This document shows positions 17,750 to 23,285 of a DNA stretch of 64,000 nucleotides, one piece after another (positions within the stretch are counted from its first letter, which is position 1; the number at the start of each line of letters is the position of its first letter). The stretch lies in assembly GCF_020515625.1 (NCBI RefSeq), contig NZ_JAIWPJ010000002.1:124001-188000 (forward strand). Direction: 5' to 3'. The translations under genes were made by a program, and so were the position numbers. Under the pieces are notes generated by a model. It was not told the origin of the DNA, did no database searches, and saw only the letters and a list, made by a program, of their open reading frames with translations. The DNA comes from Natrinema amylolyticum. Lineage in GTDB: Archaea; Halobacteriota; Halobacteria; Halobacteriales; Natrialbaceae.

Positions 17750-18252
17750 CCCCTCGAACGCTGGCGATACGTCGAACGGTCTCTCTTCTGACTCGTTATC
17801 GGTTCACCGCCGTAGTTCCGGTCACCGAATCGAAAATCGTCCCGTCTTATCGATCTCGCGGAAGCGGTCGCGTCGGGACATCTCCCTTGAGACACTCGCG
17901 GGGCCAATAACACGACTCGAGATCGAGACGCTCGCCGAGGCGACCGCGTTCGCTGCCATCGACGCGATCGATATAGAACTCGAGTCGATTCTGAGAGAGG
18001 GGCAGAGGACGTGCTCGAGACGGCTCGCGACCGCGACGTCTCGATCGTCGCGTCGGCACACGACTCCGAGAGGTCTCGCCCGGAAAGCGATAGTCCGAAC
18101 CCTGACGGAGGCAGGCGAGTACGCCGACGACGCGAAGCTAGCGGAGACTGCAGAATCGAAGCGGACTCGCGCTTCTGGCAGCGGCGGAGCAGCCGGCCTC
18201 TCACAGCAATCCCGTCGCGACGATGGTGGTAGGAGAAGTGGAAGCTGATTGA
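17750..18252 (+). pseudogene. Degenerate second aroD (3-dehydroquinate dehydratase)
   Basis: Just after aroD, pieces in alternating plus-strand frames match aroD in order: TLAEATAFAAIDAIDIELES, then VLETARDRDVSIVASAHD (the catalytic histidine region), then IVRTLTEAGEYADDAKLAET (the catalytic-lysine region, reading DDAKLA), then NPVATMVVGE before a stop. At least three frame changes break it. It is not an exact copy of the intact gene, so it is an older duplicate or a gene displaced by the neighbour. Confidence 0.75.
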
Positions 18253-18470
18253 TCTCGTATTCGGCCATGAGGGCCCGACTCCATTGAAGGATGAACAGGA
18301 CCCCGAACTAGTTATATCCATTTAAATATCGCACGCAAACTCATGCAGAAATATCCGAGCTAATTATCGGTTCCAAAATATAAATGAAGATGTCCGCTAT
18401 CTTGGCCGACTTGCGCTTTCTCAGGAATCCCAATCCGACCCAATTTGTTTTTATTTTAGTATAACGTTCG
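18253..18470. other. AT-rich intergenic stretch
   Basis: A 218-base gap between the aroD remnant and the convergently oriented DUF1102-like gene. It is clearly AT-richer than its surroundings, with TATA-like and T-rich tracts (TTTTTATTTTAG at about 18446). No gene seen. Confidence 0.4.
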
Positions 18471-19106
18471 TCAGAGTTCTAGCCGCTCATCGTATTCGTC
18501 GTTGTGGACTGCGCTGTCGTCGTTGATTTGCTCTCTTGCGGTCGATTTATCGGTGTACTCTTTCGTTCCAAGAGCGACGATGAGGAGATTATCGAGCAAA
18601 TCGTCGTCAGAACTGAGACCGTGCGTTGCCGTCGCCATCCCGATGTCAGTACACTCACCTACCCCGAGCGTAGTTCCATGACACGGTCCCTCACGGTCGC
18701 CATTGTAGAATACGACCCGATCTGCGTTGTCACCGACCTTGAACAGATAGACTCCTATCTCCTGCTTCCCTTGATTACAGATCTGGAAAAGGTCGTTGAA
18801 CCATGTAACTGAGTTAGAGTTGACACCTACACCTTGATTGGGTCCAGTCGACTCCCCATTCCCAGTATCATTCGGATTGTCTGGATCCATCTGAATCCGA
18901 AGGTGGTCAAGGCTGTCGTAGTCAACGTAACTCTCATTGGGGCTATCTGGAATTTCGTGAAGGCCGAGATACGCATTTCGGTCGTGAGCGATCTCGACGC
19001 TCGCGGTTCGTTCCGAGACGACTCCGCTGAACGCACCCGTGCCAACGAGTGCACTTGCTCCGATTGCCGTACTCCCTGCACCGATCAGGAATTTACGTCG
19101 TTCCAT
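18471..19106 (-). CDS. DUF1102-like exported protein
   Basis: A secreted protein of 211 residues. It begins MERRKFLIGAGSTAIGASAL, a signal of the twin-arginine-like or SipW type (RR-K-F-L followed by a hydrophobic stretch and GTGAF), then SERTASVEIAHDRNAYLGL, a start typical of haloarchaeal DUF1102 proteins with a beta-rich mature part. Two cysteines (in LFQICNQGKQ and GPCHG) could form a disulfide. ATG 19106 was preferred because it begins the signal; a GTG lies four codons upstream. The neighbours are a small or broken ORF, a DUF5305-like membrane protein and a signal peptidase, all on the same strand. In related gene sets the secreted protein is the substrate of the linked peptidase; here this is inference. 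Confidence 0.75.
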   Translation of the reverse strand: MERRKFLIGAGSTAIGASALVGTGAFSGVVSERTASVEIAHDRNAYLGLHEIPDSPNESYVDYDSLDHLRIQMDPDNPNDTGNGESTGPNQGVGVNSNSVTWFNDLFQICNQGKQEIGVYLFKVGDNADRVVFYNGDREGPCHGTTLGVGECTDIGMATATHGLSSDDDLLDNLLIVALGTKEYTDKSTAREQINDDSAVHNDEYDERLEL

Positions 19107-19111
19107 AGGTT

Positions 19112-19273
19112 TCACCACTCCGTATACGCTCGGATCTCCAGCCGATCATCACCCGACAGCGTGGCGTCGTATCCGAACGCATGCGTTCCTCCCATGCCCG
19201 TCCCACTCCTTGTGTATACACTGACAGGAGGTTCGACACGCGATTCCTGCAGTCCGGGATTCGCGTCTCCCAC
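19112..19273 (-). pseudogene. Small ORF or 3' end of a frameshifted gene upstream of the DUF1102-like gene
   Basis: A GTG-started frame of 53 codons whose stop is five bases from the DUF1102-like start. It ends with a credible beta-rich sequence, THAFGYDATLSGDDRLEIRA followed by YTEW. Upstream, the next frame reads TIELEVREWETRIP, which would join it at residue 7 if one base were restored. So it is either a real 53-residue protein or the tail of a gene broken by a single-base loss. No family was recognised. Confidence 0.4.
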
Positions 19274-19575
19274 TCTCTGACCTCGAGTTCAATTGTCGAC
19301 CGCAGTGAGACTAGTCGAGTGATACATCGATGCTCTCTTGCCCCGTTCTCGAGCTATCTCGAGTTAGCCTGATCCGATCTACGACGGTCTCATCGACAAG
19401 GACTGCATGCGGTATCTCGAGAAACAGTAGCAAGTGGATAGGTGTTAGAAATCATAGAAACAGCCGCTGATCCGAACCTATCGCTGCTGAAAGTTGTCGC
19501 TATCCCACCGGACGATCGATAGCGACCCAGATCGAAAATCGAGCGATTGGTACGGACTACGGACCTATCGATAGT
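19274..19575. other. Gap inside the surface-protein cluster
   Basis: About 300 bases between the small ORF and the DUF5305-like gene. Short minus-strand protein-like stretches occur in shifting frames (for example FLEIPHAVLVDETVV), so it may hold more of a broken gene. Nothing intact. Confidence 0.35.
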
Positions 19576-20736
19576 TTATCGGCCGGCCGCCGATTCGTCA
19601 GCGCCAGCGTTCGCCTCGCCGGTCGGCCCCCCTTCGACAGAATCGGTACTGGAATTATCGCTATTCGAGTCCCCTTCGAGCCCATCCGGTTCGTACGCGT
19701 ACAGCGACTCCCCGTCGACGACATAGTACCCGCTCGCGGCCTCGTCCTCGAGCACGCGCCGGTCGCAGTCGATCGCGATGTCCACCAGGTCCTCGAGCGT
19801 CGACACCTCGATTCGCGACCGTCCCCGGACGTCAGCGGGCAGCGAGCCCTGGGAGATCCAGTCGTCGAACTCCTCGCGCTCGTGCTCGGCGCGGAGGCGC
19901 TCGAGCTCGGCTTCGGACGGCGCGAGCGTGCCGTTGGCTCGCGTGACCACCAGCGCGCCGAGGGCGCAGAGCGACGCGAACAGCAGGATAACGGAGCCGA
20001 GCGGACCGACGAATCCGGCCGAGTCCGCGGTCGTGGGCGTGGGCTCGTCGGGCCGATCCCGCATGCTCCGATCCGCCGTCGGCGCGTTGACGCTGTACGT
20101 GGAGCCGTCCGGCGCGATTCCGAGTTCGTATCGCTCGGTCCGCTCGACGGGGTCGCCGTCGACGGTCCCGTCGACCGTGACGGTCGCGACGACGGCCGTC
20201 TCAATCGATCCCGGCGAACCGCCGAGGCTCTCCTCGATGCGGTCGCTCTCGTTGACCGTCGCGGGAACGTCCACCGCGAAGTCGGCCGTCGCTTCCTCGC
20301 CGGGTTCGAGACCAGCGGCTGTCGTCTCCGCGATCGTCTCGTTGACCTCCCAGTATTCCTGCTCGTCGTCGGCGGAGCGTATCACCCGCTCGAGTTCGAC
20401 GTCGGCGGTCACGTCACCGGCGTCGGCCTCGTACCGGTAGGTGAAGGTCCCCTCGAGTACGGGCGTCACTTCGGTGAAGTAGACCGACCGATCCGAGAGC
20501 TGCGTCCCGACCGGGAACACCTCGTTTTCGGTCCGTACCTCCGCACTGTGATCGAACTCGCCCGTCGTCGACCACGGCTCGACCGTCTCGCGGTCCGTCT
20601 GCTCGGCGGAGCCGGCGACGGAGGTGTACACTCCCCAGCCGCCGACGAGCGCCAGCGCGAGCAACACGACGACGACCGGAACGAACCACTCGTCGAGCGC
20701 GGCCCGCGCGCGGACGAACGATCTATCGCTGTTCAC
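19576..20736 (-). CDS. DUF5305-like membrane protein
   Basis: A protein of 386 residues with a transmembrane segment at about 16 to 38, an extracytoplasmic beta-rich region to about 235, a second transmembrane segment at about 240 to 262 and a cytoplasmic tail of 120 residues ending in a low-complexity acidic stretch. This two-span layout and the FDHSAEVRTENEVFPVGTQL / YFTEVTPVLEGTFTYRY sequence match the haloarchaeal DUF5305 family as I recall it. Function is unknown; such genes sit beside archaeal signal peptidases. It starts 43 bases after the peptidase gene ends and is probably in the same operon. Confidence 0.7.
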   Translation of the reverse strand: MNSDRSFVRARAALDEWFVPVVVVLLALALVGGWGVYTSVAGSAEQTDRETVEPWSTTGEFDHSAEVRTENEVFPVGTQLSDRSVYFTEVTPVLEGTFTYRYEADAGDVTADVELERVIRSADDEQEYWEVNETIAETTAAGLEPGEEATADFAVDVPATVNESDRIEESLGGSPGSIETAVVATVTVDGTVDGDPVERTERYELGIAPDGSTYSVNAPTADRSMRDRPDEPTPTTADSAGFVGPLGSVILLFASLCALGALVVTRANGTLAPSEAELERLRAEHEREEFDDWISQGSLPADVRGRSRIEVSTLEDLVDIAIDCDRRVLEDEAASGYYVVDGESLYAYEPDGLEGDSNSDNSSTDSVEGGPTGEANAGADESAAGR

Positions 20737-20779
20737 TGCCGATACCTCCCCGATTTCGGATCTCTCGTGTGCATAGCTA

Positions 20780-21943
20780 TCATCTCAGAAATCCCTCAGT
20801 CGATTCGGATCGCTGCCTCGAGCGCGTCCTGATCGTCCCGGTGCCCGCGAGCAGCGCGAAGGGGAGCACGACGAGCCCGGCGACGACGGTCGCCGTCGCT
20901 GTCATCGCCATCCAAGGGTGAATGGCGTGCAAGCGGGCGATTATCGGCGGTGGAAGCACCGCGAAGTACCGCCGATCCGTGAACGAGCGCAGGTAGTACC
21001 CCGTCTCGGGCGGCGCGGTCAACGCGACATTCGCGTTGACGCTCTCGCCTCGAGTGAGCACCCGCGGCTCATCGTCGACGCTGATCCCGTCGCTGGCCGG
21101 TTCGGTAATAGACACGACTGGCAGCACGCCGCCGTTTTGCACCTCGTAGGGATGCGTCTCCGTCTCACCGGTGGGGACCACGCTGGGCCGATCGGAGTCG
21201 AACTCCGCGCTCACGACCCCGATCTCGACTGATCCAGACATGGCGATCATGGTCGCCAGCGCGACCACGAAGACGAGCACACCTATTCCGATGACCAGTC
21301 GCTGCGCGTCGAACGTGTCTTTGCGCGTGCGCGCTCGGGAGCGCTCGCGATCTGGGGTACCCCGGCCGTCGAGCGCGATCGACAGGCCGGTCACGACCAA
21401 CCCGAAACCGAGCAGGAGGTATGAGAGCCCCTGACTGCCGGCCAACGCTCGGATCCCGAGCGTCGACGCGAGCCACCACTGGGCCGACTCGAGTCCCCCC
21501 TGGACGGCCATGGCGACCGTTCCGAGGTGGGGAATCGTCACCACCTCGCCGTTCACCTGCAACGCCGTCGCGGCGATCTGCCCGTCGGTGACGTGTGGCT
21601 CACCGCCGTCCTGATCGGTGAACGGGTTCGCGTCTCCGCGGGTCACGTACCCGTGCTCCGTTTCCTCGACGACCCGATGGGTGGTCAGCCCGCCACCCTC
21701 GATCTCCTGTGCGTCGTAGACGACCACGTCTCCTTCTTCGACGGGGCCGGCGACGGCCGACGGAACGGCGACGAAACCGTCACCGGCATCGATCGTCGGC
21801 TCCATGCTTCCCGTCTCGACGTATCCGAGTCCGATCGGAATGCCGAGGACGTGCCCGATCGCGAGCAGCCCGACGAGGACGACGATACCGATCGCCGCCG
21901 CTCGTCGAAGAACCGTCCCCCCTCCCGTTCCAGTTCGTGTCAT
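20780..21943 (-). CDS. Signal peptidase I, archaeal/SipW type (S26B), with extra C-terminal domain
   Basis: A protein of 387 residues. The N-terminal 140 residues are a signal peptidase I: a membrane segment, then the catalytic serine S46 in VETGSMEPTI, the histidine in GGLTTHRVVEE that replaces the bacterial lysine, and the RGDANPFTDQD aspartates. This Ser-His type is shared by archaeal, ER and Bacillus SipW peptidases. Typical archaeal enzymes are about 150 to 300 residues; here about 220 more follow, with membrane segments near 170 and 220, a beta-rich extracytoplasmic stretch and a last segment near 355. The extra part may recruit the secreted neighbour. It heads a minus-strand operon with the DUF5305-like gene. 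Confidence 0.88.
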   Translation of the reverse strand: MTRTGTGGGTVLRRAAAIGIVVLVGLLAIGHVLGIPIGLGYVETGSMEPTIDAGDGFVAVPSAVAGPVEEGDVVVYDAQEIEGGGLTTHRVVEETEHGYVTRGDANPFTDQDGGEPHVTDGQIAATALQVNGEVVTIPHLGTVAMAVQGGLESAQWWLASTLGIRALAGSQGLSYLLLGFGLVVTGLSIALDGRGTPDRERSRARTRKDTFDAQRLVIGIGVLVFVVALATMIAMSGSVEIGVVSAEFDSDRPSVVPTGETETHPYEVQNGGVLPVVSITEPASDGISVDDEPRVLTRGESVNANVALTAPPETGYYLRSFTDRRYFAVLPPPIIARLHAIHPWMAMTATATVVAGLVVLPFALLAGTGTIRTRSRQRSESTEGFLR

Positions 21944-22251
21944 ATTCTGCGCTCCAACTGACGCGGCGACGTATCGACGAGTTGCGTCGGTTCGCGTCGT
22001 TCATCCGAACGGGACTGTTCGGTTTTGCTATGGGCTGGTTTCCACCACTGCTGGCGAGGACTGCAGCCGAACTATCGCTCGGTAAGGGTCTCGTTCGCGC
22101 CGTCGGCCGAATTCGCAGCACTCTCCAAATCTATTCATTTCGTTTATGTATCCTCGAATGGTACCAATAGTAACAGATGCGTGATTGAGAGTCCGGAAAT
22201 CAGCTGTTGGTAACAAGTCCGATCACTCTAGTTTACGATTAGTTAACATGT
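21944..22251. other. Divergent promoter region of the surface module
   Basis: About 300 bases between the signal peptidase gene (minus) and the winged-helix gene (plus). TATA-like sequences near the 22252 start (TTTACGATTAG) and an AT-rich zone from 22120 to 22250. No gene seen. Confidence 0.4.
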
Positions 22252-22851
22252 ATGTCCGTGAGTGAATCGACGGGGGATGAAGGGGTGACCGATAACCTCT
22301 CTTCGAGAGGCGACTCACGAACTGACGAACTGACACGCGACGAAATATTCACGATGCTGAGCAATCGGCGGCGACGGTGGGTACTCCACTATCTCAAGCA
22401 GACCGACGAAGAGCGGGTCGATCTGCGGACGCTCGTCGATTCGGTCTCGGCCTGGGAGTACGATGTCCCGGCGGACGAACTTCCGTGGAAGAAACGAAAA
22501 CGGGTCTACACCGCGCTCCGGCAGTCACACCTGCCGAAACTCGATGACGTCGGAGCGATCGAGTACGATCAGACTCGTGGCGTCGTCGAACTGACCGACG
22601 AAGCGGCAGAACTCCAGATGTATCTCGAGTACGTTCCGGCGGAAGACATTCCCTGGAGTCACGTCTATCTGGGGCTGGCCGGGATCGGAGTGACACTGAC
22701 CCTGCTCGCTCGGTACGCGATCTTCCCGTTCGTCGAACTCGGTGGAACGGCACTCGCAGCGATCTTCGTCGCGATGTTCGGCGTCACTGCGCTCGTCCAT
22801 ACGAGTTACGCTCATCGCAACCGAATCGGACGGGGTGAGCCGCCGCGATGA
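22252..22851 (+). CDS. Winged-helix regulator with C-terminal membrane segments (DUF7344-like)
   Basis: A protein of 199 residues. Residues 25 to 125 form a haloarchaeal winged-helix domain: LTRDEIFTMLSNRRRRWVLH, then RQSHLPKLDDVGAIEYDQTR, the pattern I associate with DUF7344. Residues about 145 to 190 hold two hydrophobic segments, so it is probably membrane-tethered. It is divergent from the signal-peptidase operon and overlaps the next gene by ATGA, which suggests it controls this module. Target and signal are unknown. Confidence 0.75.
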   Translation: MSVSESTGDEGVTDNLSSRGDSRTDELTRDEIFTMLSNRRRRWVLHYLKQTDEERVDLRTLVDSVSAWEYDVPADELPWKKRKRVYTALRQSHLPKLDDVGAIEYDQTRGVVELTDEAAELQMYLEYVPAEDIPWSHVYLGLAGIGVTLTLLARYAIFPFVELGGTALAAIFVAMFGVTALVHTSYAHRNRIGRGEPPR

Positions 22852-23285
22852 CCTCGCGGATCGGGATCGCGATGGTCGTCGTCGCGATCGTCTCGCTCGT
22901 CGTCTCGAGCGGTGGCGTGAGTTCGGTCGCGATGGATCGATCGATCGAAGTGGCGGTCACCGACGACGAGTCGGAGCAACTCGTCGCGTTCGACGCGCGG
23001 GAGAGCGGTGAGAACGAGACGACGATCGACGTGACGAACCGAGCCGACAGCGAACTGACGATAGCGATCGTCGACGAATCACAGGGCGACGACTTGGGAT
23101 CGAACGTGAGCGTCGACTCGACCACTGAGTCGGTCGAACCCGGGTCGAACGCATCGATCGAAGTGAGCGATGTTTCCTGCGAGAACGGAGGGCCTTCGGA
23201 GCGGCTCCCGATCGAGATACGTGCCACGACGGGGTCAACGACGATAGAAACGACCGTTGACGCCGCCGTCACCTGCAACAGGTAA
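22848..23285 (+). CDS. Small secreted protein, DUF1102-like
   Basis: A protein of 145 residues with a signal sequence (hydrophobic stretch at 5 to 25 ending near GGVSSVAMDRS), followed by a beta-rich acidic mature region beginning SIEVAVTDDESEQLVAFDA. That start resembles the DUF1102-like protein at 18471 (SVEIAHDRNAYLGL). It has two cysteines. The start overlaps the stop of the regulator gene (ATGA), so the pair is one operon. It may be a second exported subunit of the module or a sensor ligand. Confidence 0.65.
   Translation: MTSRIGIAMVVVAIVSLVVSSGGVSSVAMDRSIEVAVTDDESEQLVAFDARESGENETTIDVTNRADSELTIAIVDESQGDDLGSNVSVDSTTESVEPGSNASIEVSDVSCENGGPSERLPIEIRATTGSTTIETTVDAAVTCNR

Follow-up and report, generated by a model that had tools for sequence, protein, structure and literature searches.

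The five-gene cluster described here is most probably a second, paralogous Tat-fimbria (tafi-type) system of Natrinema amylolyticum. The cluster lies in a window of 64,000 nucleotides (G000:C2:124001-188000), which is the whole stretch of DNA that was analysed and comes from a genome of 4.71 Mb. Tat-fimbriae (tafi) of haloarchaea have been published (Galeva et al., iScience 2025, 28:111793, as cited in PMC12687288), and the window cluster is therefore to be regarded as a variant within a known system. The features of the cluster, in window coordinates, are as follows.

18471-19106 (-): P0001, Tat-signal pilin of 211 aa, the presumed fibre subunit
19107-19245 (-): conserved non-coding leader of the pilin gene (13 leaders aligned, mean column identity 80%)
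19126-19180 (-): possible leader RNA hairpin, with arms at 19173-19180 and 19126-19133, from a pairing test
19210-19223 (-): CAGTGTATACACAA element, 114 nt 5' of the pilin ATG, with the palindrome GTGTATACAC at 19212-19221
19576-20736 (-): P0002, DUF5305 membrane protein (Pfam PF17231, 2.8e-53)
20780-21943 (-): P0003, SipW/Sec11-like signal peptidase (TIGR02228, above cut-off)
22252-22851 (+): P0004, membrane-tethered winged-helix protein (DUF7344, Pfam PF24035, 1.6e-29)
22848-23285 (+): P0005, small exported pilin-like protein (NCBIfam TafC, 5.2e-7)

All five genes are intact, and only one of them encodes a Tat-pilin. The genes for P0003, P0002 and P0001 are separated from the divergent genes for P0004 and P0005, which overlap by 4 bases, by the intergenic region 21944-22251. 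The two-span DUF5305-like protein, the Ser-His signal peptidase and the divergent membrane-tethered winged-helix gene that the initial annotation had recognized from the sequence were all recovered by the profile searches. An A+T-rich stretch (window positions 18250-18470, G+C 0.425) lies directly 3' of the pilin gene.

The presumed subunit P0001 starts with MERRKFLIG and contains a twin-arginine (RRKFL) signal; among 53 homologues, R3 and A25 are invariant and R4 is nearly so, and the mature part presumably begins at about residue 26. This protein matches the NCBIfam families TafE (1.2e-11; 44.7 bits, far below the equivalog cut-off of 155) and TafA (24.7 bits, not reaching the cut-off of 190). 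The sequence of 9P0A, the pilus solved in the same genus (Natrinema sp. J7-2), is matched at 1.5e-9 by P0001 as a single sequence and at 4.1e-31 by a profile of its 53 relatives. The protein had been described as DUF1102-like, but the Pfam score for that family (PF06510, E 0.0054, 17.4 bits) falls short of the gathering cut-off of 22.2, and we rejected this assignment for that reason; the Taf families are matched instead. The Tat signal was not mentioned in the initial annotation.

The AlphaFold (AF2) model of P0001 has a mean pLDDT of 76.7, with low confidence in the N-terminal region. In a Foldseek search against the PDB, the best match of this model is FimA (5LP9, 9e-4), followed at rank 2 by the Pyrobaculum bundling pilus (7UEG, 1.2e-3); the Sulfolobus filament (thread, 7PNB) is also among the top matches, and the Natrinema Tafi pilus 9P0A is retrieved with a probability of 0.98. 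The E-values are modest and the TM-scores are around 0.4. All four of these proteins are pilins that are assembled by donor-strand exchange. Thus, the proposed resemblance to archaeal bundling pili is borne out by the fold comparison, whereas TasA is absent from the top 50 matches. The single-chain model predicts that P0001 is a pilin with a donor-strand fold related to those of FimA, AbpA and thread, whose N-terminal strand might insert into the next subunit. The chain of 9P0A in Foldseek comprises 188 residues compared to 215 in its sequence, which, going by the lengths only, would fit the loss of a signal ending near A25.

The small divergent protein P0005 had been annotated as a second DUF1102-like exported protein. 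Its export and divergent orientation stand, but DUF1102 is not among its Pfam matches; instead, it matches NCBIfam TafC (29.1 bits, far below the equivalog cut-off of 410) and, at E 0.00098, 9P0A. The hhalign comparison of the P0005 profile with the pilin profile gives a probability of 98% (2.7e-13), and C111 and C143 are invariant in 19 sequences. By these comparisons, P0005 is a TafC/TafE-like homolog of the pilins and a candidate minor subunit. The adjacent P0004 contains two C-terminal membrane spans and has homologs in most of the taf-type loci examined, which makes it a candidate controller of the window cluster.

The signal peptidase P0003 passes the cut-off of TIGR02228, the archaeal signal peptidase family (54.5 bits compared to 51.85), and matches NCBIfam SipW at 6e-7, under the cut-off of that family. 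The catalytic pair Ser46-His89, with no Lys, is of the S26B (SipW/Sec11) type; S46, H89, D104 and D110 are invariant in 38 sequences, and the P0003 profile matches SEC11A/C over residues 34-106. P0003 also has further membrane spans and, at its C-terminus, an extra external region. The DUF5305 protein P0002 consists of two membrane spans with an external beta-sandwich between them (AF2 pLDDT above 90 over approximately residues 60-215) and a cytoplasmic tail, and is presumed to be an anchor or assembly factor for the fibre. The external C-terminal region of P0003 shows no relation to the pilin or to DUF5305 in hhalign, and the idea that the external domains of P0003 and P0002 are pilin relatives was dropped because hhalign gave it no support. 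The DUF5305 fold was likewise discarded as a clue to function because its fold matches are generic beta-sandwiches only.

SipW relatives (E <1e-20) are present in 112 of the 125 Natrialbaceae genomes that were compared, and their neighbourhoods repeat the same set of pilin, SipW, DUF5305 and winged-helix genes. Because this linkage, which the initial annotation had proposed to survey, is conserved across Natrialbaceae, the association of these genes is not due to chance. Clusters of the window type, counted by SipW identity of at least 57%, are found in 23 of the 125 genomes. In the SipW tree, this type, which spans several genera, is split from the canonical type and from a third type with a support of 0.88. 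A third Tat-pilin cluster type (L068 in G050, L072 in G056, L061 and L063) encodes a pair of pilins, and its DUF5305 protein is longer (approximately 460-520 aa).

The source genome itself contains three SipW-like matches and a canonical taf cluster at about 1832-1843 kb of contig C1 (C1:1832437-1842789 = L009:4438-14790). The canonical cluster encodes a TafA-like pilin, a TafF-like protein, SipW and DUF5305, along with divergent TafE-like, TafC-like and winged-helix genes; a 1062-aa protein is encoded between its divergent gene groups. The canonical TafA-like pilin matches 9P0A at 5.7e-17 and is itself under the NCBIfam TafA cut-off (54 vs 190 bits). A weak extra TafE-like match was observed at G000:C2:696157-696375 (L008), in an open frame of 383 aa. 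Judging from these sequence comparisons, the window cluster represents a second, separate paralogous Tat-fimbria type in this genome. It shares with the solved tafi system the Tat-signal pilin, the Taf-family subunits and the predicted donor-strand pilin fold, but differs from that system in belonging to a separate SipW clade, in having a leader element of its own, in scoring under the Taf equivalog cut-offs, and in lacking a TafF-like gene and the 1062-aa protein, both of which were looked for in the window.

More distant likenesses can be drawn to three other systems. The archaeal bundling pili of Pyrobaculum calidifontis (AbpA, 7UEG) resemble P0001 in the predicted pilin fold, but belong to a different phylum and yielded no sequence match, and P0001 differs from them in carrying a Tat signal. 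In Bacillus, the matrix fibre protein TasA has a dedicated SipW; the window cluster similarly links a Ser-His signal peptidase to a presumed fibre subunit, but with a Tat rather than a Sec signal in P0001 and with the extra external region in P0003. FimA, a type 1 pilin of the chaperone-usher kind, is the top Foldseek match of P0001, whereas neither an usher nor a PapD-type chaperone was found in the window cluster. The filament idea of the initial annotation holds with respect to homology, predicted fold and linkage, but the proposed haloarchaeal counterpart is not a new system: Tat-fimbriae had already been named, and the window holds a paralogous cluster of that kind. A text search of the literature returned nothing on DUF1102, nor on TafA together with TafE.

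The region 19112-19273, previously noted as a small or broken open reading frame, is not a gene because relatives have homologous DNA whose matches fall in different frames; this DNA also matches the leaders of intact pilins, and a decayed subunit gene was rejected on both grounds. The leader of the pilin gene, which is conserved and non-coding, contains CAGTGTATACAMAA with the core TGTATA. Of 14 loci that were aligned, 13 have this core 113-115 nt 5' of the pilin ATG, and the other has it at 109 nt; in one of the 14 (G074), the bases directly 5' of the core deviate. The leader 14-mer has 19 exact copies in the 125 Natrialbaceae genomes, compared to 2 for a reversed-pattern control, and 17 of the 19 are located 99-115 nt 5' of a Tat-pilin. 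Other families of the order have 8 exact copies, none of which is at a pilin, and therefore the element is not a general haloarchaeal promoter motif. The leader might also form an RNA hairpin: 96% of cells are paired, compared to at most 59% when slid, and covariation is weak.

The pilin is hypervariable, and a sharp break in similarity falls just behind its signal sequence. In two Natrinema genomes (G068 and G069), the proteins flanking the pilin are 91-97% identical, whereas the mature pilins are 32% identical. At the DNA level, identity is 93.5% from SipW through pilin codon 27, just 3' of the predicted cleavage site, disappears over the rest of the pilin gene and approximately 70 nt beyond, and then returns at 93.2%. 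A similar pattern is observed for G091 and G092, in which SipW, DUF5305 and the winged-helix protein are 91-97% identical and the mature pilins 30.5%, whereas the pilin that G089 has in common with G091 agrees at 63%. The pilins most closely related to the window allele belong to other genera (57% in G088) rather than to its Natrinema siblings. The G+C content is 0.50-0.53 in mature pilin genes and 0.67-0.69 in SipW. Silent cassettes within the genome were rejected as the source of the alleles because G069 contains no copy of the G068 pilin allele and G068 none of the G069 allele. The simplest reading of these alignments is that the pilin is replaced by horizontal exchange, probably via recombination in the flanks; formally, the mature part may instead have diverged very rapidly. 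The canonical TafA-like pilin (L009:10306-10866) and 9P0A, too, are near-identical in the signal and the first residues before their sequences diverge, and exchange of the subunit may therefore be a general feature of Tat-fimbriae. Somewhat tentatively, the locus might be envisaged as a plug-in slot, in which the family-specific leader and the signal codons are a constant 5' arm behind which strains swap mature pilins that are unrelated to one another, under the same dedicated control and with the same peptidase, yielding antigen-like variation of the fibre, for example, in virus escape. In a limited literature search, we found no description of the leader element or of mature-pilin exchange behind the signal.

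Under a Tat-fimbria interpretation, P0001 would be exported in folded form via the Tat pathway and lose its signal through cleavage by P0003, most probably behind the invariant Ala25. Once free, the N-terminal strand would complete the fold of the next subunit, giving a thin fibre by donor-strand exchange, with P0005 as a minor, base or tip subunit and P0002 holding or assembling the fibre at the membrane. Expression would be controlled by P0004, perhaps through the leader element, and strains would swap the mature pilin, with recombination taking place in the conserved leader and signal sequence and in the downstream flank. The step assigned to P0003 has the most serious competitor, namely that this peptidase acts on other substrates and a general signal peptidase of the genome cuts the pilins, as the three SipW-like matches would allow; given the tight conserved linkage of P0003 with the pilins and the Bacillus precedent, we consider this unlikely.

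The overlap of the P0004 and P0005 genes, and the adjacency of this pair in many relatives, would also be expected if the exported proteins were a monomeric surface or sensor module, with P0005 sensing the outside and signalling through P0004, and P0001 a shed surface protein. Such a module appears improbable considering that P0001 and P0005 both share homology with a solved pilus subunit and with named Taf fimbrial families, and that P0001 is predicted to fold as a donor-strand pilin. Even more improbable is the possibility that the cluster is a duplicate of the canonical one and is decaying, with the missing TafF-like and 1062-aa genes and the single Tat-pilin reflecting loss of function: its genes are intact, its SipW clade is separate, extends over several genera and keeps the catalytic residues, the leader element is maintained at a nearly fixed distance, and relatives of the same type are organized alike.

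A second Tat-fimbria system in this genome would mean that several diverged systems of this kind, each with its own SipW-like peptidase, can coexist in one haloarchaeal genome. The similarity break points to an archaeal fibre subunit that is replaced wholesale, directly behind the export signal, between otherwise near-identical strains. Variation of the subunit and its cause, be it viruses, surfaces or mating partners, thus become directly testable, and the leader element is a candidate site at which a membrane-tethered regulator might control a single target.
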